NCBI GenBank assembly: GCA_032622095.1
Contig: CP136066.1
Location: 9,509,784-9,573,783, forward strand
Direction: 5' to 3'
DNA: 64,000 bases
Source: Siphonodentalium dalli
Lineage: Eukaryota; Mollusca; Scaphopoda; Gadilida; Siphonodentaliidae
Position 1 is the stretch's first letter; each line of letters starts with the position of its first letter. Both the position numbers and the translations under genes were made by a program. Positions 3,405 through 49,500 of this stretch are shown in pieces. The notes under the pieces are model-generated. The model was not told the DNA's origin, ran no database searches, and worked only from the letters and a program-made list of their open reading frames with translations.

Positions 3405-4200
3405 TTAGTATATTAGTGCTGAAGCGGCCATTGTTACCACATTTTGGTGTACTGGGTACCCAGCTTTAGGAAAAGGTGTTTTGGGTTACCAGCTTGATCT
3501 TTGTAATGTTGGAGCACACAGTTGTTAACCCTTTACCCAACAGAACGGCCCTGTGCCAATGCATTCTCTTATATATGCGAGTCGACCATAGGTCGCCTCG
3601 CATATATAAGAGAATGCATTGGCTTAACATATTAAAAATGATAAAATTGTCAAAGAATGTAGAAAAATATTATAAAAATTGTTAAAAAATGTAAGAACAA
3701 ATTATAAAATTGTTATAGAATGTAAGAAAAAATGGTAAAAAGTGTTTAAAAAAGAATATTTTTAGGCCAATGCATTCTCTTATATATGCGAGGCGACCTA
3801 TGGTCGACTCGCATATATAAGAGAATGCATTGGCACAGGGCATAACTGTAACTATCACAATGTGGTCAAGGAGCCGGTTCCAATGATATCCATATTTGTA
3901 TGGTTCTATTGAGACAGATCGAATATATTTTAGGCTGTTGAAGCTTTATTTGGGCGTTTTTGGCCGTTTTGTTGGGTAAAGGGTTAAATAAATATATAGC
4001 ATGCTATCAAGTGGCGCACACTAATCTGTGACTAATAATTACTTTTTCTCGGCACTATAACGTTATTATTTACGATAACATAATCATATAACATAAAACC
4101 ACAAAGGTCAAGCTAGGTATGCAAAACACCTTTTCGTAAAGCTGGGTACACAACACATCAAAATGTGGCGACAATGGCCCCTTCAGCTATATTAGTCCAT
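3405..4200. repeat. Inverted-repeat pair surrounding MITE B2
   Basis: 3405-3510 and 4085-4200 are inverted copies of about 100 bp, both with GGCCATTGT, CCACATTTTG, GGTACCCAGCTTTA-like and AAAAGGTGTTTTG segments. B2 lies between them, so it appears inserted into an older fold-back repeat. Confidence 0.65.
3525..3987 (-). mobile_element. TTAA MITE B2 (longest copy)
   Basis: TTAACCCTTTACCCAACAGAAC on the left and TTTGTTGGGTAAAGGGTTAA on the right, two 68-bp palindromes (3556-3624, 3764-3833), and a spacer of tandem-like AAAAATTGTTAAAGAATGTAAG units. This is the best reference copy of family B (463 bp). Confidence 0.82.
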
Positions 4201-5015: not shown

Positions 5016-5098
5016 TTAACCCTTTCAGTTAAGCTGATGGAGCATTATAGATCCTGTGGCAGTGCATTCTCTTATAAGAAAATGCACTGGCTTACAAG
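5016..5098 (+). mobile_element. 5' fragment of a D-type TTAA element
   Basis: TTAACCCTTTCAGTTAAGCTGATGG and half of a palindrome (GCAGTGCATTCTCTTATAAG). No matching right end was found. Confidence 0.5.
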
Positions 5099-5186: not shown

Positions 5187-5586
5187 TTAACCCTTTACCG
5201 AACAAACCGGCCAAAACCGGCCAAATAAAGCTTCAACAGCCTAAAATATCTTCGGTCTGTCTCAATAGAACCATACACATATGGATATCATTGGAACCGG
5301 CTCCTTGACCACATTGTGATAGTTACAGTTATGCCCTGTGCCAATGCATTCTCTTATATATGCGAGTCGACCATAGGTCGCCTCGCATATATAAGAGAAT
5401 GCATTGGCCTAAAAAAAATCTTTTTTAAACACTTTTTACCATTTTTTCTTACATTCTTTAACAATTTTATAATTTTTAATGTGTTAAGCCAATGCATTCT
5501 CTTATATATGCGAGGCGACCTATGGTCGACTCGCATATATAAGAGAATGCATTGGCATAGGGCCCTTCTGTTGGGTAAAGGGTTAA
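5187..5586 (+). mobile_element. TTAA MITE B3
   Basis: Same structure as B1, with palindromes at 5338-5407 and 5488-5556; ends CCCTTTACCGAACAAACC and TTCTGTTGGGTAAAGGG; TTAA on both sides. Confidence 0.82.
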
Positions 5587-7549: not shown

Positions 7550-8001
7550 TTAACCCTTTCAGTGCCAGGGGTCGATCTCATTGGCCCTAATTTACGGTCT
7601 GTAAAATCGGCCCTAAAAAAATATAATTTTTTTTTTTTAAAGATTTTTTTGGGTTGAATTTGTTTTGGGTATTCTTAAGCATGCTATAGCGAAATTAAAA
7701 ACAAACTGGATAAAACCTTAGGGGCATGTTATAACTCAAAACTATCACCAAGTATTCATAATAATAATTTTGATGCCCATGAAAAACGTAAGATTCCCTG
7801 GCACTAAACCTACAAAATAAGAATATAAGAACAAATTATTAAAATTGTAAAAAATAATAACAAATGATGAAAAATTGTTAGGCCAATGCATTCTCTTATA
7901 TATGCGAGGCGACCTATGGTCGACTCGCATATATAAGAGAATGCATTGGCACAGGGTATCTGGGTTGATACAAAAATCAGACCTGGCACTTAAAGGGTTA
8001 A
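7550..8001 (+). mobile_element. TTAA MITE C1
   Basis: TTAACCCTTTCAGTGCCAGG left; CCTGGCACTTAAAGGGTTAA right. One 68-bp palindrome (7882-7949) identical in type to that of family B. A paralogous empty site is present at about 30407-30411. Confidence 0.82.
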
Positions 8002-8189: not shown

Positions 8190-8987
8190 TTAACCCTTTG
8201 AACCCTGACGTCCTGAACATTAAATGGTCCACACCCGAGGCGCCTGATGTTATATAGCGCTTCCGACGACGTAACTCGTAATGCTCTTCAATGGGACGTA
8301 TATACATGTATACACACTCAACTATATGGCAATCTACTATGCTAACTGAACTAGTGTTTGGTGAAATATGTCAAGGTATTTCAGCGAGACAGTCTATTCC
8401 ACGTTCAATATACATGTAGATTATATTGCGGCTCCTACTGATCGCGCTATATATTTATAACAAAATTCTTATCCTTTGCCAATGATGAAAGGCATTTCTC
8501 AAAATACACCTCTATGCATGCGTGAAGAAACAACCCCCTGTCACCACCAATTTGGCTGCTAAAATCAGAGTTATGAACATACATGTGACTCATTCGTGCA
8601 AAGTAGAAGCACAATTCTAGGTAATTTGTGCTTTGATCCCAAAATTTCTAATGTAATACTTCCCCTTTCAGTTTCCGAAAATAAAATGTGAATGTTTTTT
8701 TCTCAAAATAGGCATCTGCGCATGCGCAAAGAAACAGACCCTCTGTCATCAGTTTGTCGGTCAAAGTCACATGGGTAAACATGTGACGAATGTGTGCAAA
8801 GTAGAAGGACAACTCTAGTTTATATGTGCATTTATTGTGCAGTAATTTCGTGGCAAATATTGTATGATTTCCGGACCGGTCTCCTGGGATATAGGAATAT
8901 AAGGCTTGGACCGGTATTGCGGTCTCCCGGGATATAGGAATATAAGGCTTCGACCGGTATTCCGGTCTCTCACGTTCAAAGGGTTAA
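8190..8987. mobile_element. TTAA element E1
   Basis: 798 bp with 14-bp inverted ends TTAACCCTTTGAAC. The interior has no B/C palindrome. It contains an internal duplication (CAAAGTAGAAG blocks at about 8599 and 8798) and two 45-bp GGAATATAAGGCTT / ACCGGTATT units near the right end. No transposase frame. Confidence 0.72.
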
Positions 8988-9391
8988 CCCTTTACCCAAC
9001 AGAACGGCCCTGTGCCAATGCATTCTCTTATATATGCGAGTAGACCATAGGTCGCCTCGCATATATAAGAGAATGCATTGGCTTAACATATTAAAAATGA
9101 TAAAATTGTCAAAGAATGTAGAAAAATATTAGAAAAATTGTTAAAAAATGTAAGAAAAAATTATAAAATTGTTAAAGAATGTAAGAAAAAATGGTAAAAA
9201 GTGTTTTAGGCCAATGCATTCTCTTATATATGCGAGGCACAGGGCATAACTGTAACCATCATAATGTGGTCGATGAACCAGTTCCAATGATATCCATATT
9301 TGTATGGTGTTATTGAGACAGACCGAAGATATTTTAGGCTGTTGTAGCTTTATTTGGGCGTTTTTGGCCGTTATGTTGGGTAAAGGGTTAA
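8984..9391 (-). mobile_element. TTAA MITE B5, abutting E1
   Basis: Its left TTAA (8984-8987) is also the right TTAA of E1. First palindrome 9015-9083; the second is cut to one arm at about 9236. Confidence 0.8.
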
Positions 9392-14570: not shown

Positions 14571-15914
14571 TTAACCCTTTCAGTGCCAGGTCAGATTTTT
14601 GTATCAACCCATATACCCTGTGCCAATGCATTCTCTTATATATTCGAGTCCACCATAGGTCGCCTCGCATATATAAGAGAATGTATTGGCCTAACAATTT
14701 TAATAATTTTTTCTTATATTCTTTAACAGACTTATTTTGTAGGTTTAGTGCCAGGGAATCTTACGTTTTTCATGGGCATCAAAATTATTACTATGAATAC
14801 TTGGTGATTGTTTTGAGTTATAACATGCCCCTAAGGTTTTATCCAGTTTGTTTTTATAAGCCCTTTTGAAAAAAGGCCGTATTATAGTATTGGTCTGTCT
14901 AGCCGGGCGGGCGTCCGTCCGTTAACCTGTTGTCCGGATGATAACTTTAGTTAGAGTGAACCAAAATTAGTAAAATTTGGTATGTGGGTTTATTAGCCGA
15001 AAAGTAAGTTCAAGTTCGAATTTGGGTTCCGCCCGCCAATTTTCACCGGAGTTATGCCCCTTATTTAACGTTTTTTGACTTAGAAAATCCTTGAAATTTG
15101 TTGTCCGGATGATAACTTTAGTATAGTTTATCGGAATTAATCCAAATTTGGTATATTACTTTCTCCCACCAAAACACAGGTCAAGTTCGAACTTGGGGTT
15201 TTGTCCGACCATTTTTGGCAGAGTTATGCCCCTTTTTCGACTCAGAAAATTCAGTTTTTCTTATGTTTTTTGGTTTCCGGATGATAACTTGATTTTGGAA
15301 TGTTTATACGCAAAACCGTTTTTTTTATGGATTACATATATCGAAATACAGCTCAAGTCCGAATTTCGTTTTAATACGATAATGTTTGCGAGAGTTATGG
15401 CCCCTTTTTTTACGTAATTTGACTTAGAAAATCCCTGAAATTTGTTAGAATGAACCGATTTCAATCAAATTTGGTATGTGGGTTTATTAGGAGAAAAGAC
15501 AGCTCAAGTTCGAATTTGGGTTCCGTCCGCCAATATTCACCGGAGTTATGCCCCTTAATTGACGTAATTTGACTTAGAAAATCCCTGAAATTTGTTGTCC
15601 GGATGATAACTTTACTACAGCTTATCGGATTCAATGATAATTTGGTATATTACTTTCTCCCACCAAAACACAGGTCAAGTTCAAATTTGAGTTCCGTCCG
15701 CCAATTTTTACCAGAGTTATGCCCCTTTTTTTTACCAGTTTCCGCCGACCCAAGAGAGGGCGTATATTGCACGCCCAGCGTAGCTCTTGTTAAATTTGCT
15801 ATAGCATGCTTAAGCATACCCAAAATAAATTCAACCCAAAAACATCTAAAATCGGCCGATTTTACAGACTAAATTAGGGCCGATGAGATCGGCCCCTGGC
15901 ACTGAAAGGGTTAA
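14571..15914 (-). mobile_element. TTAA MITE C2, enlarged by an insertion
   Basis: Ends TTAACCCTTTCAGTGCCAGG (left) and CCTGGCACTGAAAGGGTTAA (right). One palindrome (14620-14690). Subtracting F1 (14855-15790) leaves about 410 bp, the size of C1, with the C1 sequence continuing on both sides of the insertion. Confidence 0.82.
14855..15790 (-). mobile_element. HINE-like element F1, inside C2
   Basis: On the minus strand it begins ACAAGAGCTACGC, has ATACGCCCTC shortly after, a core of about 150-170-bp tandem units (ATAACTCYGGTGAAAATTGG, GTTATCATCCGGACAACA), a GGACGGACGCCCGCCC tract, and ends in a hairpin ATACGGCC...GGGCTTATA. This layout is that of helentron-associated elements; the assignment is inferred. 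Confidence 0.65.
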
Positions 15915-21438: not shown

Positions 21439-21837
21439 TTAACCCTTTACCCAACATAAGGGCCCTGTGCCAATGCATTCTCTTATATATGCGAGTCGAC
21501 CATAGGTCGCCTCGCATATATAAGAGAATGCATTGGCTTAACACATTAAAAATTATAAAATTGTTAAAGAATGTAAGAAAAAATGGTAAAAAGTGTTAAA
21601 AAAAGATTTTTTTTAGGCCAATGCATTCTCTTATATATGCGAGGCGACCTATGGTCGACTCGCATATATAAGAGAATGCATTGGCACAGGGCTAACTGTA
21701 ACTATCACAGTTTGGTCAAGGAGCCGGTTCCAATGATATCCATATGTGTATGGTTCTATTGAGACAGACCGAAGATATTTTAGGCTGTTGAAGCTTTATT
21801 TGGCCGGTTTTGGCCGGTTTGTTGGGTAAAGGGTTAA
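21439..21837 (-). mobile_element. TTAA MITE B6, in the FAM50 3' region
   Basis: TTAACCCTTTACCCAACATA left; GTTTGTTGGGTAAAGGGTTA right; palindromes 21465-21538 and 21617-21687. It starts about 167 nt after the FAM50 stop and carries the candidate AATAAA. Confidence 0.82.
21795..21800 (-). terminator. Candidate FAM50 polyadenylation signal AATAAA inside a MITE
   Basis: On the minus strand this is the first AATAAA after the stop at 22004 (about 204 nt downstream); none occurs between 22003 and 21838. It lies in the conserved AATAAAGCTTCAACAGCC segment of MITE B6. Use of the signal is inferred. Confidence 0.45.
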
Positions 21838-22003: not shown

Positions 22004-22514
22004 TCATTTGACAGTAATTTTCGCAGCGTTTTTGTCTGATACAGTATAATGATCCCAACTCTTCTCTGGGTCATAAGCTTCCCACCGACTTGCAGGAAAA
22101 ATATGCTTATTACGATCATACCACGATCGTGAACAGACTTTCCCGGCATGCGATTCGTCCTTCTCGACTCGAGCGTCACTAATCACTCTCACATCACAAT
22201 GAACGTCAAAGTTAAATAAAGGTCCACTTTTACCTCGCGCTTTTGTCACAATGAAATCATAGAATGAATAATGATGTGGAATTATAAGATCTTCTTTAAT
22301 GTACATTAGTTGGTCGACAGTCATCGTTTTCATGTCATTGAATTCCTTTCGTAAACTTTCTAAACACCGTTGCAGGAATTGCTGAATAGAGTTGCCTTTC
22401 CTCATTCTGAGCTGCCGTCGATGGCCGGATCCATCCCAGTAACTGTACGTTATCTCAATCTCCTCGTTCTTCATATCCTCTTGTTTCTGAACCCATTCTT
22501 GTCTCAACTTCTCT
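22004..22514 (-). CDS. FAM50A: FAM50 exon 5: XAP5 domain and stop
   Basis: 511 nt: one base finishing Arg183, then 169 codons and TGA, after the acceptor CTCTGCTTTAACAG. It carries the most conserved part of the protein: [30 protein letters not shown], a run of [60 protein letters not shown] and [18 protein letters not shown]. An open frame continues upstream to 22573, but those 19 residues are intron. The C-terminal [12 protein letters not shown] is unlike the mammalian end. Confidence 0.96.
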
Positions 22515-25500
22515 CTGTTAAAGCAGAGCAAATATAAATAGTTAGATTCAAGGTTTTGCCAGGGCAGGGACAAGGATATAGATCGTTTCCGTTGTGTGGT
22601 GGAGGGGGGAGGGGCGGTTCCAACTTAGAATTTCCAACTGCACCTCCCTCCCTTGAACCAGACCAAAAACAAAATGATAACAAATGATAACATCGTTAAA
22701 GAATGTGAGAAAAAATTATAAAAATTGTTAAAGAATGTTAGAAATGTTTTTAAAAAAGATAAAAATTTATAAAAAATGTAAGAAAAATTTATAAAAAATG
22801 ATAAACAATTGTTAGGCCAATGCATTCTCTTATAAATGTGAGGCGACCTATGGTCGACTCACATATATAAGCATGCAGTGGCACAGGGTCTTTAATGTTT
22901 GTCCAATATAAAAAAATTACCTTGATTTACATCCCATCCCGACCCTATGTTTAATCCCCTCCAATTTTGTTTTTATTTGGGTATCATTTATATAAACTTT
23001 TTTCTCATGCCTTAACCCTCAAATTACATTTGAATGACCCATTAATCAGTCTATTTTGATCAAATTGACATCTAAATCAAGTTGTATTATATAAGATAGG
23101 ATATTGCTCCAATATCTAAAACTGTCCATGACCAACAATTTATTTATATTGGCCTTGGGAAGTCCACACACTCATTCTTGTCTCAACTTCTCTCTGTTAA
23201 CCCTTTCAGTGCCAAGTCCGATTTTTGTATCAACCCATATTTCCTTGATCATTTTTCAAATTTATTGATTATAATAACTGAAAGGGTTAAAGCAGAGCAA
23301 ATATAATTAATTAGCTTCAAGATTTCCCCAGGTCAGGGACAATGACAAATTCTGTGATATTCTGTGGATATTCATCATTTACTCTAAGAAACCAACATTA
23401 CCCCTTTTATGCCATAATTATCATAATTGCAATTAGAGGATGCTGTCTGGTCTGCCCCCCCCCCCCACTCCCCCAATACCAATGTGACCACAATAGAAAT
23501 GAAAGTGTCAATGACACTGTAGCTCAACTTAGGTAGGGGAATAATTTAATGGTTGACAGTAAATGGAGGAATAGGAAAGGTTTTTTTTTTATAATTTTTA
23601 TTTCTTTTTGTTACAATTTGTCATAATGTAATATATAAGGCCAAAAGGAAGAATACCTGAGTTTAGGGTAACATGAAGGAAAAAAACAGAGGCGGGCGGG
23701 CGGTACTTCATTTTATTTTATTTTTCACGGGGGATAGTATTTAAGTATTCGTGCCTTCTAATCGTCTGCCAGTGTCACTCGTATAAAGCTTCGGCAAGTC
23801 ATTGTCACACTAATCAATGTCATGGTAGCTTTAATCAGTTTAATGGTGTTACAGAAGTTCAATGACATGTATACAGCATGATATTAAATGATATTATATA
23901 TAGAACTAGAAGGTGACCCGACTTCGTCCGGGCTTTGACCTTGAATTGACCATTTTGAAGGTCAAGGTCAGTTTGACCCGTCGAAAAACTCCCCCGATAA
24001 AAGTATCCGAGGGTATCAAATTTCGTCGAAATCCGTTAATTGTTTAATTTATTTTGAGTTAATTCTGCCTTTTTAATCAAGAGACATGATGGTAGCCGTC
24101 CCGTGATGGTACCCGTCCCTAAAATAGGTACGTTTGTGGGTACCCGTTTCAAGGTGAAGATCACCTCGGGCGGAAAGCCCCAAGTACGTCACACAACACG
24201 CTCATGTCTGGATGCAGTCATACACGCACACGCCCAGATGTAATAATCACATTACACACATACGCTCTTTATCGACGACACTGCGGATACGAACGCTCTT
24301 TAACTATCAACGCGATTAACCCCACCGTGCCAATGGCGGTAATTTTTGTGACTGGGGGTGGAGAATGGGTGCTCTGACGTTCTCAGAAGCGATGCGATGC
24401 CACTTCATCTGGTATTTTACCCTTAGATAGGAAGTTTGGGCTCAATCCGTCCGGCAGTTTTCGAGTTCATCGCGATCACACACACACATATCTTCCAAAA
24501 TATATAATAGATAAGTGTCTAGTGTTGGAAATTAAACAGTTTATGTTCACGCTGAAGCTCGGATATTACAGGCCAAATCCTACGAGTGGACATATTACTG
24601 TTAAATTTCCCACACAAGACACTTATGATATTTTGTTTATCCACCGACTCGAATACTAAGAAATTTTGCGAAATATTCAACTCAGAAGGTGAATTTAACA
24701 AGAGTTCCTCCATTGGAAATGGCACATACATGCGGCAAGGCGAACGTGACGTACAGAATTATTTTTAATCTGACATTTTATTACTATGTCTTTTTCTGTC
24801 AGTTCAGAATCCGTGTGGTACCGGTTCACGCACGACAACATGTCTGTGCTATAGTTGACAGGCGCCATGTTTCTATTCTGATTCATATGAACGCATTTGT
24901 GAAGTTTAATAGCTAAAACGCAGGATCTATCCGCACACGGAAGTGTTTCCGCCATATTCAATCGGCAAAATATCCGGTTACTTTCGATTTGCTAGTTAAT
25001 ACATATCGCGTGTTTTCTGGTTTCCGCTTTCGAGAAATCGGCGAGGTTTGCCGAACAATGACGAGGGAATACGAATATACTACAACAACAATGGCAGCAC
25101 TTCCGTTTTTCGTGAATTGACGATATTTGCAAGGAAATGGTTTACTTGTTTAAGCTAATTCCGTAGTCGCGAATTCCTAATTACAAAAAAATAAAATGAA
25201 GTCGGAGGAAATTTTTGAAAAACGATAAAATGGAATTTGGCGGCAGGTTTTGAGTAGGGGCGGGCGGGTTACCCTAAACACAGGTATTCTTCGTTTTGGC
25301 CTAATGGATATAACAAAAACAATGGCGTCACAGTGCACAGTTGCTCTTATCCTGGCCATGTTTTTTGGCCGAGCGACCCCAAAATGACTCGTTCCCATGT
25401 ACATGTCATTGTTAACATCCATGACAAATTTCATGAACATCCAACCAAAGCTACGACCTGTAGCCCGCGCCAAAGGATTTAGTCATGCAAAGAGTAAAAT

Positions 25501-28500: not shown

Positions 28501-31500
28501 GTCTGCCAGCTGCAGTATGACGTAATCAGTGACACGTGCTTTTGCCAGAATGTGTTTTTTTTCCTGGATATACGGGAGTTCCACGTTGTGTCTTTTATTG
28601 CTAAGACAATAATTCCCGTTATACGAACAAATGGTGTTTGTGATTTGCAGTTAATGAATGTCAATAAAGTTAATAACGATATTTATTCTGGGGACTATTT
28701 AAATAGTGTCGTTATAATGCATTCAATTTAGGGATCACGCACATCTGAACATTGATATAAACTGTAGATACGGGATTTATCGAGCTGTCTAAAATGGCCG
28801 AAATCATTTGTTCCCTTCCCGATAACCAACACTGATTACAAATAGTGTCATTTATGGGCATTTTAGGCAATAAAACGAGACTAGAAATGTTATTGTAATA
28901 TTTTAATATTCACATTAATTGAAAAATGACTTTCTCAAAGTAACTTATACTTACCTTTACTTAATCTGGAAGCCCGTTATAATGGGCATATTTCCCCGAT
29001 ACTCGGCTTTCATCTATTTCAATATTTTAATAATACACTTCACGGTACACAAACATGGACGGAGATCGTGAGAACGGCCGTCCTATTTTGGAAGATTGAC
29101 GGTCAGCCATCGAATCCCGTCATTAACCTCGTTACAAAAATGCTACCGCGTAGCGGTAATGTCACCGCGTTTGTGCGGTGCATTACCGCGTGCCACCGCG
29201 CTACCAACATTCGTTACCGCTGGTAGTGCGGTGGTACCGTGAACGTCGCGGTGGTACCGCGGTACGCGCGTGGTAGTGCAACCGCAAATCGGCGGTATGT
29301 CGCGGTATTGCACCGCGGTATTAACGCATGTACACCTCGTTAAAACAGGTCGCTTAATTTGAGCAGTGCTGTATGTACATGTACCGGTATGCTACATGTA
29401 ACTCAACTTTACTACACTACACATTGTTCTCGATATATCATATTTTTTCTAAAAGCTGGCTCTTGCAATTGTCATTTTATTTGTATTGTTGTCTGTTGTT
29501 ATGGTTATTCAAAGACCATTAAAAGTATCTTATCTTAAGGATAAGCTCAGGGTTTCTGTTTGGGGGGGGGTGAATATTTCCAAAATCCACTCTCTCTTGT
29601 GCTTGAATTTTCCAACTAGTACCTCAAGATTTCCATACGTGGGAAAATTTCAATCTGATAGTATTGGATAATTGTTCAACATTTGGAAATCATGAGGTGA
29701 CAAGTGATTGGAGGTCACTAGTTCAAAAAACTTTCGGTCTGAAAACATCCCAGTAACTACGTTATCAAGTCTGGATATAGTGTGTCTGACATTTGCAGAA
29801 TGAGGTCCCCGGAGGGTTAATTTAGTGACACTATCCTGCACTGCAGGCTAGCATCACCAAATTCACCCTCTGGGGACCTCAATCTGCTTAAGCCTCAACT
29901 ATTATGGGAGACCTACGGTAAGATCAGATTGAAGTTCCCCAGTTGAAGTTGGTGATGTTCACCCATTAGTTACCTCAATTATGCATTTTATCTTTTTAAA
30001 ATTAAGGGATATAAAAACTGAAGAGAAGGGAAGAATTACTAAAAACATTGTTAATTTGAGACTATAGATACTTCCCAGAAGATGAGGCCTAAGCAGAATG
30101 AGGACGCCACAGGGTGAATTTGATGATGCTAGCCCACTGTGCCTGACTGTGCGGGAAATTCTGGAATTATCACACACTATATCCAGGCTTCTATTTGACA
30201 ATATTCCAAGAGTTCAAAACCAGATCCCAAAGATTTCCATCGTTACAAATTCAGATGTTCCGAAATCACCTGCCGAAATTCAGATGTTCCGAAATCACCT
30301 GCCGAAGTTCAGATGTTCCGAAATCGCCTGCCAAAGTTCAGATGTTCCGAAATGGCTAACATTTCGGGAAAAATAGATTCTAAAGAATGCTTGGTAAAGA
30401 AAGAAGTTTACACCATAAAATGTTCTAGATACTGATGTCTGGAATTATTTGGGGAAAACATTAATTGGGCTGTTTTTCTCATTGATTTCTATTCTATGTA
30501 TAATTTTCTATGTATAATTTTCTATGTATAATTACCCAAGAACATTTAATTTACTGGCCGTGACATTTTATGCTGTGTTTCAATGGACTCAAGGCTTTTA
30601 AAGAGACTTGATGTTCACACATAAGATTACCTCAATTTGTTTTCTTCGGCCTCTCGATCACGATCTGGGAGAAAACTTGTATCAACATTTGGGTTTTTAC
30701 CTGTGAATAAATGAACATTTACTAGTAACAGAATATTGTGCAATGAAAAGGTGAGTACATATATACCTGTAGAACCAGGGAATGGAATAAATGGTGAAGT
30801 GAATATAGGTAATTGCTAAACAATTAAGTATTTCCTTGAGCATGTTGCTACCCACTGTATATTGTTAACCCTTACATGATGGGAGCTGCGCTGGTGCAGC
30901 ATTAAAGATCCTCGTATATATGCGAGTTTCCCATAGGTCAATTGCTGATGTGTTGTGGGTGCATCGGCATGTGGTAACGAGAGGCCGATCATGATCGGCA
31001 GATGTTTAACCCATACCTTGGCGATAGCGATTAGCTATAACTGATAATTGGTCAAAGATATGATAACAGTAATACATATATCAGTACCTAACTTAAAATC
31101 AAAAGGTCAAATAATTTGTCTTAAGAAGGGGTTAAAGTAATTGGGGTGGGGGAGGAGTCGTTTTAAATCTCATAACTCTGTCCCTATTCACACAAGGACC
31201 TCTCATTGTGAGATCCAATTGTTTAGCCATTAATAAATTTGACAGATAGGATAAACAATTATCCAGCCAGCAGGTTGTTCATCTTTACCTTCATACAACC
31301 ACCCCCCTAGAGCTATGTAACATATGTCATCACTCAATTAATAACAGATTTTGCTTGGAATGACATCTATTAAAGGTATTCTCATACTCTGGATATTGGA
31401 TGTTCACATGGCAATTTATTGATATCATTATATTACATGCAACTATTGCAATAAAATCTTCACATTTTCAATACAGGACATCACACCTTATTAATGGAAT

Positions 31501-34500
31501 ACAACTAAAACAAATTAGTGTCAATGACAATTTTTTTTTTTTAATTAAATAATTTTTTTATTATTATAAAAGTTTTTTAACTCTTTCGCTGCCAAACGCG
31601 CATAAATGCGAACTTCGTAGACGCTGCCAATCGCGCATTTTTGCGAATTTGGTATGTAGTCTAATGTATGGGATATAACTCTATTCTTTCCGGCATGTTT
31701 GACAGTGTACAATGTATTTATCTGTAGTACTGTTGCGCGCGAACAATTTATAGCGACAATGTCCTCAAGGTCATGCTATTTCTGACGTTATGGAGGTACA
31801 GTCAGAGCCGGAATATTGCGTCATTGTTATTAGCACGTGGTTATCAGTCGAAAGTGGCTGCTCGCAAAAGACTCAGAACTGAAGAAGTTATTGTTATTAC
31901 CTCTATACTCTAATGATCGAGGAGCGCCTGTTGCGCATAAGTTACTTATACCTATTATTTGTGTGGGCAGTAGCCTCTATTATAGGGGCGCCTGCGGCGC
32001 ATAAGATACTATGGGTGGCGGGATGGGGTGGTGGATGGGTAACTAACCTCTATACTATAATGATCGAGGGGCGCCTGCGGCGCATAAGATACTTATACCT
32101 ATTATTTATGTGGGCAGTAGCCTCTATAGGGGCGCCTGCGGCGCATAAGATACTATGGGTGGCGGGATGGGGTGGTGGGTGGATAACTAACCTCTATACT
32201 CTAATGATCGAGGGGCGCCTGCGGCGCATAAGATACTTATACCTATTATTTATAATACACCTTTACTGGTTTTGAACAACCCTCGTCTATTGTGTCGTTT
32301 TCCAGTGGTGATAACAGGCAACTAAATTAATACTGCTGGTGAGTTGACCATGCGTACGCCCGCGTGACCCATATAATTCACATAAATCATCGTAAAACCC
32401 AATTTTCCTGAAATTCAAGATGGCCGTCAAGATCACGTGACTTATAAGGGGCGGAGCAGGGTCATATATCCCCCTGCAGGTATATATACATATGGGTATG
32501 GTTATATTATATATATCTACATGTATATTTGGAATTGTACCTATCAGGGAATATTCATGCAACAAAAGCACGAACTCAACAAAGTGCGGCATTGTATCTC
32601 ATTTTACTACAAATAGGTGGCAACTTGCATAAATCCAAGATGGACGCCAAGGTCACATGACCTATTTTATGTCCAAAGTGGGTTCATATAGGTTACTCCC
32701 GTGTACCTTACTGTTGGACATCGTATAATTGGGTTGAAAATTGGAAATCAAACAACACACCCATTCATACCCACACAAACTGTACATATACAGGCAAATA
32801 GCCACTAATCCAAGATGGCCGCCAATGTCACGTGACCTTGGTGGGCGTGTCCACGGCGGCATTCGACAGGGTATACCTATGTCTATATACATGTGAAGTT
32901 TCAACTAATTATATTAGAAACTGCTTGAGATATAATGTATTACCCATATATACCTGAAATACATGGATATATGTACAGGATGCGTGGCACTGGGGATACG
33001 TCTGTGGTGGCGGGTGGCAGCGAAAGAGTTAATATTTGTTTATGTTAAATTGAGCATCTAAAAAAATATGAAAAATCCAAATTTCAAATTTAAAAAAAGA
33101 AAGAAGGGTCATAACTCCTTTAAAATAAATCGGATCAAACCCATATTCAAACTTGAACTGTATTTTGGGATGAGAAACCTATATACAAAATTTGGTTCCG
33201 ATCAAATAGAAAATGTTAGAGTTATCGCATTATACCTAAAGTGTCTACGAACTGACAGACAGACAGATATAGATGGATGGACAGACGAGTGGTCAATCCG
33301 GACATTGACGCTATGTGTACCATACTATGGTATAGGTACACATAAAAAGTTTTATCTCATGCAGAGTACAGGAAAAATACATCAAACCTGGTGTGCCCCT
33401 TTAATTTTTCAATTCACATATGTAATCAATTGAAATCAATGTTGAAAAAGCTTCCCATTAATATATAGATAAAACAAACTAGACCTACAGTACTAAAAGT
33501 GTTATGAACAATTATTTTGTTCCCATAGACTGATACAGAGCTCTAAAGTTTTTTAAACTTTGAAAACCAAAGTTGTCTTCCCATGCAACCAACAAAATTC
33601 CAATGGTAATGCTATCAAACAATGAAACCAGATTATGCCTTTAAGATGAAATTTAAATAACCATGCATATAAAATATAATAGTATAAACATTCCACCTAT
33701 GATATGGCCAGAGATACTTATAGAGTATAAAGTATATCTGATATAGCCAACACATCTCCTAGCAGTTAATTAACTCAATACAAGAGAGAACCAACTTCAT
33801 GGTATTGTAATGGGATACTATCTCTGTGTGAGAAGACAACTTCATAGCATCCTGAACTTGATTTATTAGATACTATCTAGACAGTGCCACCTGTGTATCT
33901 TTGATATATTTTAGCGATGAATAAAATAATCAAAGGGCCATAACTCCAGTAAAAAGTACCGGATCAAACCCATATTCGAACTCGATCTGTATTTTGAGTT
34001 GAGAAACTCACATACAAAATTTGGTTCCTATCAGTTGAAAAATTGTTGAATTATCAAAGCATTCATGAATTCTATGTCAAAGGGCCATAACTCCATTAAA
34101 AAATATCGGATCAAACCCATAAATCGAACTCGATATGTATTTTGGGCTGAGCAACTCACATACCAAATTTGGTTATGGTCAGATAATTTCTTTTTGAGTT
34201 ATGGCAGCATGCATAAATTCTAAGTTGAAAAAGGGCCATAACTCCGTAAAAAAATCTCAGATCAAACCCATATTTGAACTCGATCTGTATTTGGTGCTGA
34301 GAAATTCATATACAAAATTTGGTTCCGATCAGATAGAAAATATTTCAGTTATCGCACCATGCGTAAAGTGTCTACAGACAGACAGCCAGACAGACAGACG
34401 GACGGACTAACGACGAGTGGTCAATCCGGGCAACGACACTATGTTTACCATACTATGGTATGGGTAAACATAAAAATGTTGAATCATAGTGACAGGACAA

Positions 34501-37500
34501 TCACTCACAGATGGCGACCAGACAATCCAGGCTTCTTAACGGTACCAGTACCGGTAACGCAACCGTCAGTACTTGGACAATTTCCATTGTACTGGTACTG
34601 AGTTTTCACAGTACACGGTACTAGGCAGTACTCAAATTAGTAGTCTATGTATGTTTGTTTAAGCAATGAATAACTTGATTTAGATGTTATTTGCAGTGTT
34701 AACAAAACCAAATTTCAACCAGTTTGTTATTGCTAAATAAATGGTGCTTGTATACATATTGTGACAATATTCACATAGAAGCAAACCTGATTTGCAACTT
34801 GCCCTGACCAAAACGGAAGGCAATAGGATCTATCGGTAGACGCAAAGAGTAGCAAAAAGTACTTATTTTGTCGCAAAGTTGGATAATTTAAATTATGCAC
34901 ATCGTCTGCATATATCATCGGGTGCCACGGTAACCTCCACCCAAAGTGACTAATTAGCGACGCTTCTATGAGTGTTGAAACATACACATACTGTGACCTA
35001 AACATAAAAGACAATTACAAATCACCAATCGCTGACTGAGCAACAGGTCTTGACTGACAGCATGTGCTGTAACTGCAGCTGAATCAATGTTGAGGGGATA
35101 TATCATGTATCATTTCTATTCTTCAAAGACACCAAATAATCAATCTGTAACGGACATGCACCATTCCTCGAGGCTCGATTTGATATGTTGTAATAAGTTA
35201 ACCCTTTACCCGACAGAACGGCCCTGTGCCAATGCTTCTCTTATATATGCGAGTCGACCATAGGTCGCCTCGCATATATAAGAGAATACATTGGCTTAAC
35301 ATATTAAAAATGATAAAATTGTCAAAGAATGTAGAAAAATATTATAAAAATTGTTAAGAACTGTAAGAAAAAATTATAAAATTGTTAAAGAATGTAAGAA
35401 AAAATGGTAAAAAGAGAATGCATTGGCACAGGGCATAACTGTGACCATCACAATGTGGTCAATGAACCGGTTCCAATGATATCCATATTTGTATGGTGTT
35501 ATTGAGACAGACCAAATATATTTTAGGCTGTTGAAGCTTTATTTGGGCGTTTTTGGCCGTTTTGTTGGGTAAAGGGTTAAATGATTGATCAATACAGACA
35601 GCTTTAGATGTCCATTATTGTATTATATTTATTTCAATCGGATTCCATAATCACAATTTTAATAGTCAGTGAACCTGTGTTTGTGAATATAAACTGCTCA
35701 TCATTAATATGTTCAAAGTTGAGGAAGCTTTTTCAACCGCTTTGTAAAAATACCAAAGCAGAAAAGCTTACCGACCTGCCAACCATCTTGAATCTTCGCT
35801 ACATATCATATTCATACATAGGAACAACGTTGCCTGTTACCAATTTGGATATAAGATCAATTACATTTATGGCGACTATGATCACTCAGTGAGGATACAC
35901 AGCGGAGTGGTTGCATGAACTCACAGAACAAATAACAAAAATATATAATAATTATGACATAAATAAAATACACCCATAGTAGTCGAGAGCACCAAATATA
36001 CCACACTCGTGATATTGTGGATTTAATCACCCACCAAAAGGCTCATGGTTAACCCATTGAGTGCCAGGGGCCGATCTCATCGGCCCTAAACATACAAAAT
36101 AAGTCTGTTAAAGAATATAAGAATAAATTATTAAAATTGTAAAAAATTGTTAAAAAAAAAAAAAGGAAAAAAAAATTGTTAGCCCAATGCATTCTCTTAT
36201 ATATGCGAGGCGACCTATGGTCGACTCGCATATATAAGAGAATGCATTGGCACAGGGTATATGGGTTGATACAAAAATCGACCTGGCACTCAAAGGGTTA
36301 AAACCACAATTCCACATGTAGTGAAAACTCGGTACTCTGAGCTATTATGGGTGTATTCTATATGATCCAATCTACTCATCAAATAGTTAAATATAATGAA
36401 TTTGATGATGCTGCTTACCAAATCTTTTCTTTTTCATCACAGATGTCGTTGGCACCATTTGAGCATACCCCTCCTCCTCTTCTTCTTCTTCTGCCTCCTC
36501 CTCCTCTACCCCCTCATCCTCCTCACAGTCGTCTTCATTCGGATTGAATGATAGATTCGCAATCTGAATATCAGATAATGTTTTAAGATAATGTTTTAAA
36601 GGGGGACTGTACCCTAAATTTGACCATTTATGGGACCATCTCCTTTTATACTCAACAGAATGTAACAAATAATGATAAAAAAAAATGATAAAAATTGTTA
36701 AAATAGATTGTAAGAAATCATGATAAAAATGATAAAAATTGTTAAAGAATATAAAAAAAAAACAAATAATAAAAAAATGATAAAAATTGTTAAAGAATGT
36801 AAGAAAAATTGATAAAAAAATATATAATTTTGTTAGGCCAATGCATTCTCTTATATATGCGAGGCGACATATGGTCGAAACAACATGGCAATTATAATGA
36901 AAATGAATTTATGACTCCAGCCATTTATTCATTTTCATTATAATTACCATGTTATTTGATCGTTCATAGAGCACACAAGAGTATTTTGCACTAATCCATG
37001 GCTCAAATTCATTCACTTGTTCATAAATGGCCGGATTTAGTGTACAGTCCCCCTATTTAAGCATTTTTATTGAGAGAAAAAAACAGCAAATGATTGAAAT
37101 AAATAAGTGACAAAAGACAATTTTCCTGATTTCAACAATATATAATGTATTCAAGCCTTCAAATAGTATGTCTGCCATTTGCAGAATGAGGTCCCCAGTG
37201 GGCTAGCATCACCAAATTCACCCTCTGGGGACCTCATTCTGATCAGGTCGCATCTTCTGGGAAGCATCTATAATCTATAGTTTCAAAGCAACATTGTTTT
37301 TAGTTACATTTCCCTTCTGGTCAGTTTCTATATCCCCTAATTTGCTGAAGGTAAATTGCATAATCGAGGTGACTAATGGGTGAATATCACCAACTTCAAT
37401 TGCGGAACTTCAATCTGATCCTAGATCTCTCAAAGCAGTTGAGGCCTAAGCAGAATAATGTCCCCAAAGGGTGACTTTGGTGATGCTAGCCCGCTCTGTG

Positions 37501-40500: not shown

Positions 40501-43500
40501 TCTAATAAGATTCTCAACGTAAAATGACCACTATAACAAATAATCATCTTCGAGGGTCTGTCAAGGGTCCATCCATTTGGTCGCCTACAGCCAGACAAAC
40601 AAACGAACAAACAGAATTGAGTTTTATTAGTATAGATCATGGACTCGCACCCATCTCCTGTGAAGCAGTTTTATGATATATCATACCTTCATTTTTTCTC
40701 TTTTTTTCATGTCTTGTTTCTGTTTTTCAAGCAGTCTTGCCTCGGCATCTTTTTTAGCAAGTTGTTTTTCTCGTTCGTTTATTACATGTTCCTGTTTGGC
40801 TTTCATCTCATCTAGGGTAACCAATCCTGGAACAAACACAAAAACAAACTTTAACCCTTTGAGTGCCAGGGGCCGATCTCATCGGCCCTAAACCTACAAA
40901 ATAAGTCTGTTAAAGAATATAAGAATAAATGATTAAAATTGTATAAAAAAAAATAAAAAAAATAAAAAAAAAGGTTAGGCCAATGCATTCTCTTATATAT
41001 GCGAGGCGACCTATGGTCGACTCGCATATATAACAGAATGCATTGGCACAGGGTATATGGGTTGATAAAAAAATCGGACCTGGCACTCAAAGGGTTAATA
41101 TTGTTCCTGAATGGTATCTTCCATTCAGTCCTAAAAGTAAGCAGTGAACTTTCATACATTGTACTTGTTACATGTTTTCAGTTATACTATTACTGCAGGC
41201 GCGATGGAGATATTATACTATTACTGCAGGCGCGATGGAGATATTATACTATTACTGCAGGCGCGATGGAGATATTATACTATTACTGCAGGCGCGATGG
41301 AGATATTATACTATTACTGCAGGCGCGATGGAGATATTATACTATTACTGCAGGCGCGATGGAGATATTATACTATTACTGCAGGCGCGATGGAGATATT
41401 ATACTATTACTGCAGGCGCGATGGAGATATTATACTATTACTGCAGGCGCGATGGAGATATTATACTATTACTGCAGGCGCGATGGAGATATTATACTAT
41501 TACTGCAGGCGCGATGGAGATATTATATATATTAATTATACTATTACTGCAGGCGCGATGGAGATATTAGATATATTAATTATACTATTACTGCAGGCGA
41601 TGGAGATATTAGTTATACTATTACTGCAGGCGATGGAGATATTAGTTATACTATTACTGCAGGCGATGGAGATATTAGTTATACTATTACTGCAGGCGAT
41701 GGAGATATTAGTTATACTATTACTGCAGGCGATGGAGATATTAGTTATACTATTACTGCAGGCGCGATGGAGATATTAGTTATACTATTACTGCAGGCGA
41801 TGGAGATATTAGTTATACTATTACTGCAGGCGCGATGGAGATATTAGTTATACTATTACTGCAGGCGCGATGGAGATATTAGTTATACTATTACTGCAGG
41901 CGATGGAGATATTAGTTATACTATTACTGCAGGCGATGGAGATATTAGTTATACTATTACTGCAGGCGATGGAGATATTAGATTATTACTGCAGGCGATG
42001 GAGATATTAGTTATACTATTACTGCAGGCGCGATGGAGATATTAGTTATACTATTACTGCAGGCGCGATGGAGATATTAGTTATACTATTACTGCAGGCG
42101 ATGGAGATATTAGTTATACTATTACTGCAGGCGATGGAGATATTATATATACTATTACTGCAGGCGCGATGGAGATATTAGTTATACTATTACTGCAGGC
42201 GCGATGGAGATATTAGTTATACTATTACTGCAGGCGCGATGGAGATATTAGTTATACTATTACTGCAGGCGATGGAGATATTAGTTATACTATTACTGCA
42301 GGCGATGGAGATATTAGATTATTACTGCAGGCGATGGAGATATTAGATTATTACTGCAGGCGATGGAGATATTAGATTATTACTGCAGGCGATGGAGATA
42401 TTAGTTATACTATTACTGCAGGCGATGGAGATATTAGTTATACTATTACTGCAGGCGATGGAGATATTAGTTATACTATTACTGCAGGCGATGGAGATAT
42501 TAGTTATACTATTACTGCAGGCGATGGAGATATTAGATTATTACTGCAGGCGATGGAGATATTAGTTATACTATTACTGCAGGCGATGGAGATATTAGAT
42601 TATTACTGCAGGCGATGGAGATATTAGTTATACTATTACTGCAGGCGATGGAGATATTAGTTATACTATTACTGCAGGCGATGGAGATATTAGTTATACT
42701 ATTACTGCAGGCGATGGAGATATTAGTTATACTATTACTGCAGGCGCGATGGAGATATTAGTTATACTATTACTGCAGGCGCGATGGAGATATTAGTTAT
42801 ACTATTACTGCAGGCGCGATGGAGATATTAGTTATATTAATTATACTATTACTGCAGGCGATGGAGATATTATATATACTATTACTGCAGGCGATGGAGA
42901 TATTATATATACTATTACTGCAGGCGATGGAGATATTATATATACTATTACTGCAGGCGATGGAGATATTAGTTATACTATTACTGTAGGCGATGGAGAT
43001 ATTAGTTATACTATTACTGCAGGCGATGGAGATATTAGTTATACTATTACTGCAGGCGATGGAGATATTAGTTATACTATTACTGCAGGCGATGGAGATA
43101 TTAGTTATACTATTACTGCAGGCGATGAAGATATTAGTTATACTATTACTGCAGGCGATGGAGATATTAGATTATTACTGCAGGCGATGGAGATATTAGA
43201 TTATTACTGCAGGCGATGGAGATATTAGTTATACTATTACTGCAGGCGATGGAGATATTATATATACTATTACTGCAGGCGATGGAGATATTATATATAC
43301 TATTACTGCAGGCGATGGAGATATTATATATACTATTACTGCAGGCGATGGAGATATTAGTTATACTATTACTGCAGGCGATGGAGATATTAGTTATACT
43401 ATTACTGCAGGCGATGGAGATATTAGATTATTACTGCAGGCGCGATGGAGATATTAGTTATACTATTACTGCAGGCGATGGAGATATTAGTTATACTATT

Positions 43501-46500
43501 ACTGCAGGCGATGGAGATATTATATATACTATTACTGCAGGCGCGATGGAGATATTAGTTATACTATTACTGCAGGCGCGATGGAGATATTAGTTATACT
43601 ATTACTGCAGGCGCGATGGAGATATTAGTTATACTATTACTGCAGGCGATGGAGATATTAGTTATACTATTACTGCAGGCGATGGAGATATTAGATTATT
43701 ACTGCAGGCGATGGAGATATTAGATTATTACTGTAGGCGATGGAGATATTAGATTATTACTGCAGGCGATGGAGATATTAGTTATACTATTACTGCAGGC
43801 GATGGAGATATTAGTTATACTATTACTGCAGGCGATGGAGATATTAGTTATACTATTACTGCAGGCGATGGAGATATTAGTTATACTATTACTGCAGGCG
43901 ATGGAGATATTAGATTATTACTGCAGGCGATGGAGATATTAGTTATACTATTACTGCAGGCGATGGAGATATTAGATTATTACTGCAGGCGATGGAGATA
44001 TTAGTTATACTATTACTGCAGGCGATGGAGATATTAGTTATACTATTACTGCAGGCGATGGAGATATTAGTTATACTATTACTGCAGGCGATGGAGATAT
44101 TAGTTATACTATTACTGCAGGCGCGATGGAGATATTAGTTATACTATTACTGCAGGCGCGATGGAGATATTAGTTATACTATTACTGCAGGCGCGATGGA
44201 GATATTAGTTATATTAATTATACTATTACTGCAGGCGATGGAGATATTATATATACTATTATTGCAGGCGATGGAGATATTATATATACTATTACTGCAG
44301 GCGATGGAGATATTATATATACTATTACTGCAGGCGATGGAGATATTAGTTATACTATTACTGTAGGCGATGGAGATATTAGTTATACTATTACTGCAGG
44401 CGATGGAGATATTAGTTATACTATTACTGCAGGCGATGGAGATATTAGTTATACTATTACTGCAGGCGATGGAGATATTAGTTATACTATTACTGCAGGC
44501 GATGAAGATATTAGTTATACTATTACTGCAGGCGATGGAGATATTAGATTATTACTGCAGGCGATGGAGATATTAGATTATTACTGCAGGCGATGGAGAT
44601 ATTAGTTATACTATTACTGCAGGCGATGGAGATATTATATATACTATTACTGCAGGCGATGGAGATATTATATATACTATTACTGCAGGCGATGGAGATA
44701 TTATATATACTATTACTGCAGGCGATGGAGATATTAGTTATACTATTACTGCAGGCGATGGAGATATTAGTTATACTATTACTGCAGGCGATGGAGATAT
44801 TAGTTATACTATTACTGCAGGCGATGGAGATATTAGTTATACTATTACTGCAGGCGATGGAGATATTATATATACTATTACTGCAGGCGATGGAGATATT
44901 AGTTATACTATTACTGCAGGCGATGGAGATATTAGTTATACTATTACTGCAGGCGATGGAGATATTATATATACTATTACTGCAGGCGATGGAGATATTA
45001 TATATACTATTACTGCAGGCGATGGAGATATTAGTTATACTATTACTGCAGGCGATGGAGATATTAGTTATACTATTACTGCAGGCGATGGAGATATTAG
45101 TTATACTATTACTGCAGGCGATGGAGATATTAGTTATACTATTACTGCAGGCGATGGAGATATTAGTTATACTATTACTGCAGGCGATGGAGATATTATA
45201 TATACTATTACTGCAGGCGATGGAGATATTATATATACTATTACTGCAGGCGATGGAGATATTAGTTATACTATTACTGCAGGCGATGGAGATATTAGTT
45301 ATACTATTACTGCAGGCGATGGAGATATTAGTTATACTATTACTGCAGGCGATGGAGATATTAGTTATACTATTACTGCAGGCGATGGAGATATTAGTTA
45401 TACTATTACTGCAGGCGATGGAGATATTAGTTATACTATTACTGCAGGCGATGGAGATATTAGTTATACTATTACTGCAGGCGCGATGGAGATATTAGTT
45501 ATATTAATTATACTATTAGTATTACTGCAGGCGATGGAGATATTATATATACTATTACTGCAGGCGATGGAGATATTATATATACTATTACTGCAGGCGA
45601 TGGAGATATTAGTTATACTATTACTGCAGGCGATGGAGATATTAGTTATACTATTACTGCAGGCGATGGAGATATTAGTTATACTATTACTGCAGGCGAT
45701 GGAGATATTAGTTATACTATTACTGCAGGCGATGGAGATATTAGTTATACTATTGCTGCAGGCGATGGAGATATTAGTTATACTATTACTGCAGGCGATG
45801 GAGATATTAGATTATTACTGCAGGCGATGGAGATATTAGATTATTACTGCAGGCGATGGAGATATTAGTTATACTATTACTGCAGGCGATGGAGATATTA
45901 TATATACTATTACTGCAGGCGATGGAGATATTATATATACTATTACTGCAGGCGATGGAGATATTATATATACTATTACTGCAGGAGATATTAGTTATAC
46001 TATTACTGCAGGCGATGGAAATATTAGTTATACTATTACTGCAGGCGATGGAGATATTAGTTATACTATTACTGCAGGTGATGGAGATATTAGTTATACT
46101 ATTACTGCAGGCGATGGAGATATTATATATACTATTACTGCAGGCGATGGAGATATTATATATACTATTACTGCAGGCGATGGAGATATTAGTTATACTA
46201 TTACTGCAGGCGATGGAGATATTAGTTATACTATTACTGCAGGCGATGGAGATATTAGTTATACTATTACTGCAGGCGATGGAGATATTAGTTATACTAT
46301 TACTGCAGGCGATGGAGATATTAGTTATACTATTACTGCAGGCGATGGAGATATTATATATACTATTACTGCAGGCGATGGAGATATTATATATACTATT
46401 ACTGCAGGCGATGGAGATATTAGTTATACTATTACTGCAGGCGATGGAGATATTAGTTATACTATTACTGCAGGCGATGGAGATATTAGTTATACTATTA

Positions 46501-49500
46501 CTGCAGGCGATGGAGATATTAGTTATACTATTACTGCAGGCGATGGAGATATTAGTTATACTATTACTGCAGGCGATGGAGATATTAGTTATACTATTAC
46601 TGCAGGCGATGGAGATATTAGTTATACTATTACTGCAGGCGATGGAGATATTATATATACTATTACTGCAGGCGATGGAGATATTATATATACTATTACT
46701 GCAGGCGATGGAGATATTATATATACTATTACTGCAGGCGATGGAGATATTAGTTATACTATTACTGCAGGCGATGGAGATATTAGTTATACTATTACTG
46801 CAGGCGATGGAGATATTAGTTATACTATTACTGCAGGCGATGGAGATATTAGTTATACTATTACTGCAGGCGATGGAGATATTAGTTATACTATTACTGC
46901 AGGCGATGGAGATATTAGTTATACTATTACTGCAGGCGATGGAGATATTAGTTATACTATTACTGCAGGCGCGATGGAGATATTAGTTATACTATTACTG
47001 CAGGCGATGGAGATATTAGTTATACTATTACTGCAGGCGATGGAGATATTAGTTATACTATTACTGCAGGCGATGGAGATATTAGTTATACTATTACTGC
47101 AGGCGATGGAGATATTAGTTATACTATTACTGCAGGCGATGGAGATATTAGTTATACTATTACTGCAGGCGCGATGGAGATATTAGATATACTATTACTG
47201 CAGGCGATGGAGATATTAGATATACTATTACTGCAGGCGATGGAGATATTAGTTATACTATTACTGCAGGCGATGGAGATATTAGTTATACTATTACTGC
47301 AGGCGATGGAGATATTAGATTATTACTGCAGGCGATGGAGATATTAGTTATACTATTACTGCAGGCGATGGAGATATTAGTTATACTATTACTGCAGGCG
47401 ATGGAGATATTAGTTATACTATTACTGCAGGCGATGGGGATATTAATTATACTATTACTGCAGGCGATGGAGATATTAGTTATACTATTACTGCAGGCGA
47501 TGGAGATATTAGTTATACTATTACTGCAGGCGATGGAGATATTAGTTATACTATTACTGCAGGCGATGGAGATATTATATATACTATTACTGCAGGCGAT
47601 GGAGATATTAGTTATACTATTACTGCAGGCGATGGAGATATTAGTTATACTATTACTGCAGGCGATGGAGATATTATATATACTATTACTGCAGGCGATG
47701 GAGATATTATATATACTATTACTGCAGGCGATGGAGATATTAGTTATACTATTACTGCAGGCGATGGAGATATTAGTTATACTATTACTGCAGGCGATGG
47801 AGATATTAGTTATACTATTACTGCAGGCGATGGAGATATTAGTTATACTATTACTGCAGGCGATGGAGATATTAGTTATACTATTACTGCAGGCGATGGA
47901 GATATTATATATACTATTACTGCAGGCGATGGAGATATTATATATACTATTACTGCAGGCGATGGAGATATTAGTTATACTATTACTGCAGGCGATGGAG
48001 ATATTAGTTATACTATTACTGCAGGCGATGGAGATATTAGTTATACTATTACTGCAGGCGATGGAGATATTAGTTATACTATTACTGCAGGCGATGGAGA
48101 TATTAGTTATACTATTACTGCAGGCGATGGAGATATTAGTTATACTATTACTGCAGGCGATGGAGATATTAGTTATACTATTACTGCAGGCGCGATGGAG
48201 ATATTAGTTATATTAATTATACTATTAGTATTACTGCAGGCGATGGAGATATTATATATACTATTACTGCAGGCGATGGAGATATTATATATACTATTAC
48301 TGCAGGCGATGGAGATATTAGTTATACTATTACTGCAGGCGATGGAGATATTAGTTATACTATTACTGCAGGCGATGGAGATATTAGTTATACTATTACT
48401 GCAGGCGATGGAGATATTAGTTATACTATTACTGCAGGCGATGGAGATATTAGTTATACTATTGCTGCAGGCGATGGAGATATTAGTTATACTATTACTG
48501 CAGGCGATGGAGATATTAGATTATTACTGCAGGCGATGGAGATATTAGATTATTACTGCAGGCGATGGAGATATTAGTTATACTATTACTGCAGGCGATG
48601 GAGATATTATATATACTATTACTGCAGGCGATGGAGATATTATATATACTATTACTGCAGGCGATGGAGATATTATATATACTATTACTGCAGGAGATAT
48701 TAGTTATACTATTACTGCAGGCGATGGAAATATTAGTTATACTATTACTGCAGGCGATGGAGATATTAGTTATACTATTACTGCAGGTGATGGAGATATT
48801 AGTTATACTATTACTGCAGGCGATGGAGATATTATATATACTATTACTGCAGGCGATGGAGATATTATATATACTATTACTGCAGGCGATGGAGATATTA
48901 GTTATACTATTACTGCAGGCGATGGAGATATTAGTTATACTATTACTGCAGGCGATGGAGATATTAGTTATACTATTACTGCAGGCGATGGAGATATTAG
49001 TTATACTATTACTGCAGGCGATGGAGATATTAGTTATACTATTACTGCAGGCGATGGAGATATTATATATACTATTACTGCAGGCGATGGAGATATTATA
49101 TATACTATTACTGCAGGCGATGGAGATATTAGTTATACTATTACTGCAGGCGATGGAGATATTAGTTATACTATTACTGCAGGCGATGGAGATATTAGTT
49201 ATACTATTACTGCAGGCGATGGAGATATTAGTTATACTATTACTGCAGGCGATGGAGATATTAGTTATACTATTACTGCAGGCGATGGAGATATTAGTTA
49301 TACTATTACTGCAGGCGATGGAGATATTAGTTATACTATTACTGCAGGCGATGGAGATATTATATATACTATTACTGCAGGCGATGGAGATATTATATAT
49401 ACTATTACTGCAGGCGATGGAGATATTATATATACTATTACTGCAGGCGATGGAGATATTAGTTATACTATTACTGCAGGCGATGGAGATATTAGTTATA

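Follow-up and report, generated by a model that had tools for sequence, protein, structure and literature searches.

Among animal piggyBac elements, most of which target TTAA, CCCTT is described as the best-conserved motif of the ends (PMC10813416). The human MER85 has a length of 140 nt, TTAA as its site and inverted ends of 13 nt (PMC2268245); PGBD3, a piggyBac element in intron 5 of CSB, is portrayed in the same source as a natural exon trap with an internal 3' splice site (PMC2268245). Splice sites are also brought or recruited by introners, which are DNA transposons; some of their families are reported to carry a 3' splice site and to draw the 5' site from the duplicated target (PMC9860276). 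Literature searches, at the level of titles and the first lines of abstracts, returned no work on splice sites in the ends of piggyBac-type MITEs.

The locus described here lies in intron 4 of a FAM50/XAP5 gene of the scaphopod Siphonodentalium dalli, within a window (the whole analysed stretch) of 64,000 nucleotides (assembly GCA_032622095.1, contig CP136066.1, positions 9,509,784 to 9,573,783, forward strand). A 94-bp element in this intron resembles piggyBac-type MITEs such as MER85 in its TTAA duplication, its short inverted ends and its small size, with no room for a gene; it departs from them in its second half, which is unlike the local family. Its likeness to PGBD3, as far as the cited description goes, is that of an intronic TTAA element bringing a 3' splice site in the direction of the host gene. 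In PGBD3 the splice site is described as internal, placed before the ORF, accompanied by a poly(A) signal and used, whereas in the 94-bp element the AG lies in the terminal repeat, the tract and the branch point derive from the copied acceptor of the host gene, and the site is a predicted one. Introners, as characterized in the source above, are likewise non-autonomous, and some have terminal repeats and target duplications, but they create new introns, whereas the 94-bp element is one insertion inside the existing intron 4; for this reason it was not classified as an introner. Both systems are varied slightly here, in that a terminal repeat completes the acceptor copied from the host.

Because a single gene carries both the filled and the empty TTAA site, at a distance of 0.7 kb, the insertion is readable at base resolution. 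Should the element-end acceptor be used, it would show that TTAA transposons can land in acceptors while carrying the last part of the site, and it would link MITEs to poison exons; should it not be used, the locus would constitute a clean case of harmless intronic debris.

The FAM50/XAP5 host gene

The FAM50/XAP5 gene in the window has five exons on the minus strand. Exon 5 encodes the XAP5 C-terminal domain (Pfam XAP5, E 1.4e-56, 191.5 bits vs a cut-off of 25) and matches human FAM50A in PDB (structures 8c6j and 9fmd) with E 6.9e-84 in phmmer. With a human FAM50A sequence for the query, tblastn recovered exon 1 at 52235-52429, exon 2 at 40696-40827, exon 4 at 30630-30701, and exon 5. An acidic candidate for exon 3, read by eye, fits at about 36420-36570 and ends in AAAAGATTTG/gtaagc (TTTG/gtaagc); together with the four exons from tblastn, it bears out the earlier numbering of the last exon as the fifth. 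Exon 5 starts with A GAG AAG, so the frame from exon 4 is kept. The two exons that flank intron 4 are the following.

22007-22514, minus strand: coding part of FAM50/XAP5 exon 5 without the stop codon (XAP5 domain), from phmmer, Pfam and frame continuity from exon 4
30631-30700, minus strand: FAM50 exon 4, spliced to exon 5, end AAATTGAG/gtaatc, from tblastn and the sequence

A connection of FAM50A with the spliceosome is described in PMC7378245; this makes a curious setting and is not evidence.

A second copy of the exon-5 acceptor

An 86-bp segment around the exon-5 acceptor, of which 24 nt are exonic and 62 nt intronic, occurs twice. The second copy lies 679 bp upstream, in intron 4, and is split by the inserted element.

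22491-22576, minus strand: copy 1, without insert, from the alignment
22515-22576, minus strand: true exon-5 acceptor within copy 1, with CTAAC branch-point candidate, tract, TTAA (22518-22521) and CAG
22577-23169: spacer of 593 bp between the copies, partly like the interior of the window's TTAA elements (blastn within the window)
23170-23200, minus strand: exon-side half of copy 2, with 21 identical nt of exon copy (23173-23193), AG (23195-23194) and left TTAA
23197-23290, no strand assigned: piggyBac-type MITE including both TTAA target copies, with 14-bp perfect inverted ends and the shared 44 nt
23278-23279, minus strand: AG of the element-end acceptor-like site (CCCTTTCAG/T), with a hypothetical exon start at 23277
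23287-23345, minus strand: intron-side half of copy 2, with right TTAA, CTCTGCTT tract and CTAAT branch-point candidate

For the alignment, the insert was set aside and the flanks of copy 2 were joined to represent the empty site. Segment 22491-22576 then aligns with 23170-23200 plus 23291-23345 over 86 columns, with 0 gaps and 9 mismatches. The score of 127, against a maximum of 53 when random stretches of the window were compared with block-shuffled ones (391 comparisons), rules out chance similarity, which an earlier reading made from the sequence alone (hereafter, the sequence-only reading) had named as a possible refutation. The same reading had placed a second exon-5 acceptor with about 21 nt of exon in intron 4, in agreement with the 21 identical nt at 23173-23193; the junction coordinates it gave, 23197/23196, are a few bases off the copied AG.

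Eight of the mismatches are intronic and distant from the acceptor, the ninth being at the exon-side edge. The longest identical run, 44 nt, spans the splice site (p 0.0099 in 100,000 random placings of 9 mismatches); it could reflect constraint on a copy that does not drift freely, gene conversion, or chance. In blastn within the window (E up to 0.01), no third copy of the segment was found. A longer tandem duplication is unsupported, as 22577-23169 and 23346-23940 gave no match in the same search, and no transposon ends were seen by eye at the borders of the 593-bp spacer.

The inserted TTAA element

The length of 94 bp counts both TTAAs (23197-23200 and 23287-23290), and the insert proper is 86 bp. 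Its empty counterpart is the single TTAA at 22518-22521, so that the proposed precise insertion of a MITE at TTAA, with the 4-bp target duplication visible beside its empty site, is supported. The coordinates given earlier for the empty site are correct; its assignment to the exon is not, the TTAA being intronic and three bases before the exon. The inverted ends are perfect over 14 bp, TTAA included; the insert starts with TTAACCCTTTCAGTGCCAAG and ends with the complement of TTAACCCTTTCAGTTATTAT.

The element is related to a local family. Its first 44 nt agree at 95, 93, 93 and 91% with TTAA-bounded ends at 14571, 41098, 36301 and 8001, respectively, these four other elements sharing the end at 40 to 42 of 44 columns. 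Allowing at most three mismatches, the window contains 14 matches to the element's opening 17 bases (0.21 expected), two of which are its own ends, and TTAACCCTTT is matched 45 times with at most one mismatch (5.71 expected). The second half differs from the local family, its sole other match in the window being 16 nt at 5016-5031, and the window contains no second copy of the whole 94-bp element. The shared end, searched as one exact pattern in viral contigs, gave 0 matches. In a search for transposase, Pfam applied to six chosen translated stretches (two of them FAM50 exons) gave only XAP5, in exon 5. The TTAA duplication with its visible empty site, the CCCTT inverted ends and the family repeated in the window support a classification as a MITE of the piggyBac superfamily.

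Since piggyBac elements excise without a footprint, the sequence of events does not follow from the intact TTAA of copy 1 by itself; duplication first and insertion into copy 2 second would be the simplest order.

Splice sites before and after the insertion

Acceptors were scored with human-type splice-site tables, the host not being human. With its flanks joined, copy 2 has the same CTCTGCTTTAACAG/A as the true site and a score of 7.42. The true exon-5 acceptor, also at 7.42, ranks only 8th among the 342 AGs of intron 4, and matrix scores alone thus do not pick out real acceptors. As present, the copied AG scores -3.75 (rank 232 of 342). The sequence before its CAG has changed from CTCTGCTTTAA to GAAAGGGTTAA, as the sequence-only reading described, and its tract and branch point are now about 90 nt away. 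The copied AG is very probably dead, judging by these features. If used from exon 4, it would be read as REKLRQE followed by a stop, and the un-inserted copy would similarly lead to a stop after 7 residues.

The insertion deleted nothing, and CTCTGCTTTAA runs on into the element's CCCTTTCAG/T. The tract and branch-point candidate of the copied acceptor are retained, abutting an element end that supplies a CAG; at the level of sequence, the acceptor has therefore been shifted by 84 nt and not removed. The resulting site, CTCTGCTTTAACCCTTTCAG/T, scores 6.53 against 7.42 at the true acceptor and ranks 15th of 342. The earlier description of the copy as silenced holds in part: its AG is weakened (7.42 to -3.75), but its tract and branch-point candidate persist next to a new CAG. 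Used from exon 4, the element-end site would give SYYNQ and a stop; for both sites, the stop would come no later than the 8th codon. A donor-like AAG/GTAATT at 22921, at the 98.9th percentile of the window's minus-strand GTs, would close a 357-nt exon.

A branch-point rule based on consensus tables requires a yURAy candidate 18-45 nt upstream with no AG between. At scores of at least 6.0, a threshold chosen after the element-end score was known, two of the 342 AGs pass, namely that of the true acceptor, with CTAAC at 28 nt, and that of the element end, with CTAAT at 34 nt. Passers number four at 2.0, three at 3.0, 4.0 and 5.0, two at 5.5, 6.0 and 6.5, and one at 7.0; under the looser yUNAy they number 14, 12, 9, 6, 3, 3, 2 and 1 at 2, 3, 4, 5, 5.5, 6, 6.5 and 7. 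The predicted element-end acceptor thus has branch point, tract and AG in order, by a rule that is unspecific. With yURAy at 6.5, 247 of the 6564 AGs on the two strands of the window pass, 223 of them in a tandem array at 41.4-51.3 kb. Outside it and another array that begins at 60536, the count is 24 of 4894, including the true acceptor, the element-end site and one at the end of a different element (15901). This rate of about 0.5% is the same as in intron 4, and passing is therefore no proof of a splice site. Moreover, the branch-point candidate of the element-end site is inherited from the copied acceptor and so adds no independent surprise. Among 11 element ends scored, the six with CAG range from 4.4 to 6.6 and the five with GAG or AAG from -3.5 to 1.2.

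Predicted RNA hairpin of the element ends

Folding predicts that the two ends of the element pair in a hairpin of -21.9 kcal/mol (z -3.19; 3 of 200 shuffles equally stable), a fold that the RNA need not adopt in the cell. In contexts of 40-150 nt, the unpaired probability is 0.00 for the element-end AG, 0.00-0.11 for the copied AG and 0.17-0.34 for the tract, compared with 0.27-0.38 for the AG and 0.41-0.45 for the tract of the true acceptor. The predicted stem is lengthened by CUCUG/CAGAG. The hairpin may hide the new AG and in this way silence the site by a route other than that proposed in the sequence-only reading.

The true acceptor (22513-22528) is itself a small palindrome, CTCTG-CTTTAA-CAGAG, with TTAA in the loop. 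In the inserted copy, its arms CTCTG and CAGAG extend the predicted hairpin of the element.

Origin and possible effects of the split acceptor

The locus is probably an intronic relic, split by a MITE, whose net effect is most likely none. The 86 bp around the exon-5 acceptor are duplicated 0.7 kb upstream within intron 4, and a non-autonomous piggyBac-type element lies in the TTAA of the second copy, separating the copied AG from its tract. The duplication, the insertion and the element's kinship with a local family are shown by the sequence; the order, with the duplication before the insertion, is inferred. The surviving tract and branch point run into the element end, which contributes a new CAG that the paired element ends probably conceal in the RNA. 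Splicing of the intron would use the true acceptor and at most rarely the element end, in which case early-stop transcripts would arise. Both the copied AG and the element-end AG are presumably inactive, and the whole feature can be taken as putatively neutral intronic debris.

Use of the element end is conceivable because its score is near that of the true acceptor, the branch-point rule is passed and a good donor-like site lies downstream. The acceptor would then have been moved instead of silenced, the copied branch point and tract serving the element-end CAG and creating a cryptic poison exon with its first base at 23277 and a stop after five codons. The site's rank of 15 and its place as one of two yURAy AGs at 6.0 or above (three at 5.0), together with the donor-like sequence that would complete the exon, speak for such a shift; yet the AG and some of the tract are paired within the predicted hairpin, 14 of the 342 AGs rank higher by matrix alone, and the threshold of 6.0 was post hoc, with AGs outside the arrays passing at a similar rate at 6.5. 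On balance, a moved and used acceptor is unlikely. A broader proposal is a doubtful one, and we would give it little credit: elements with TTAACCCTTTCAG ends landing in the TTAA of a TTTAACAG acceptor might be acceptor-preserving, keeping branch point and tract and adding their own CAG, such that the splice site moves into the transposon end and is not lost; the duplicated acceptor would here have become a transposon-ended poison exon of a spliceosome-associated gene.

The sequence-only reading held that the insertion silenced a decoy acceptor that could harm the mRNA; a stronger version adds retention by selection. The drop in the score of the copied AG, the early stop that the un-inserted copy would cause and a hairpin that could conceal the whole site speak for it, but it requires both that the decoy was used and that the insertion was favoured, which are unsupported, and the insertion brought a new CAG. 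Furthermore, the window is so rich in TTAA ends of this kind that a chance insertion suffices and selection for silencing need not be assumed. Silencing is accordingly plausible for the copied AG and unproven for the whole site, selection for it is unsupported, and the complete scenario is very unlikely. Still more improbable, to the point of being hardly credible, is a loop-out in which the hairpin removes the element from the path, rejoins tract and branch point with the copied AG and restores the old decoy. In the predicted fold, the stem is indeed flanked by the tract and, on its opposite side, by the copied CAG; however, the fold continues through CUCUG/CAGAG, where the copied AG is itself paired with the tract (0.00-0.11 unpaired).

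Other repeats in the window

A palindrome of about 70 nt at 21617-21685 has 33-nt arms that are 97% complementary, and similar sequences are found at 22816-22882, 14615-14690, 7882-7957, 40979-41054 and 36184-36258. It sits within TTAA elements with otherwise different ends, beside AT-rich repeats, and may be a module common to or nested in several MITE families. The spacer between the acceptor copies contains a decayed version; the palindrome is absent from the 94-bp element.

A second TTAA-ended family, 383-463 bp long with TTAACCCTTTACC ends, is present at 21439-21837, 3525-3987, 5187-5586, 8984-9391 and 35198-35580, one copy lying about 170 bp beyond the FAM50 stop codon. Intron 1 of FAM50 contains a tandem array (41573-50321) of about 265 copies of a 33-bp unit with long open frames; the 223 AGs in or beside it that pass the acceptor-plus-branch-point rule are those counted above. 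A 1456-bp stretch with TTAACTCTTTCGCTGCCA inverted ends (31577-33032) is likely another TTAA element.
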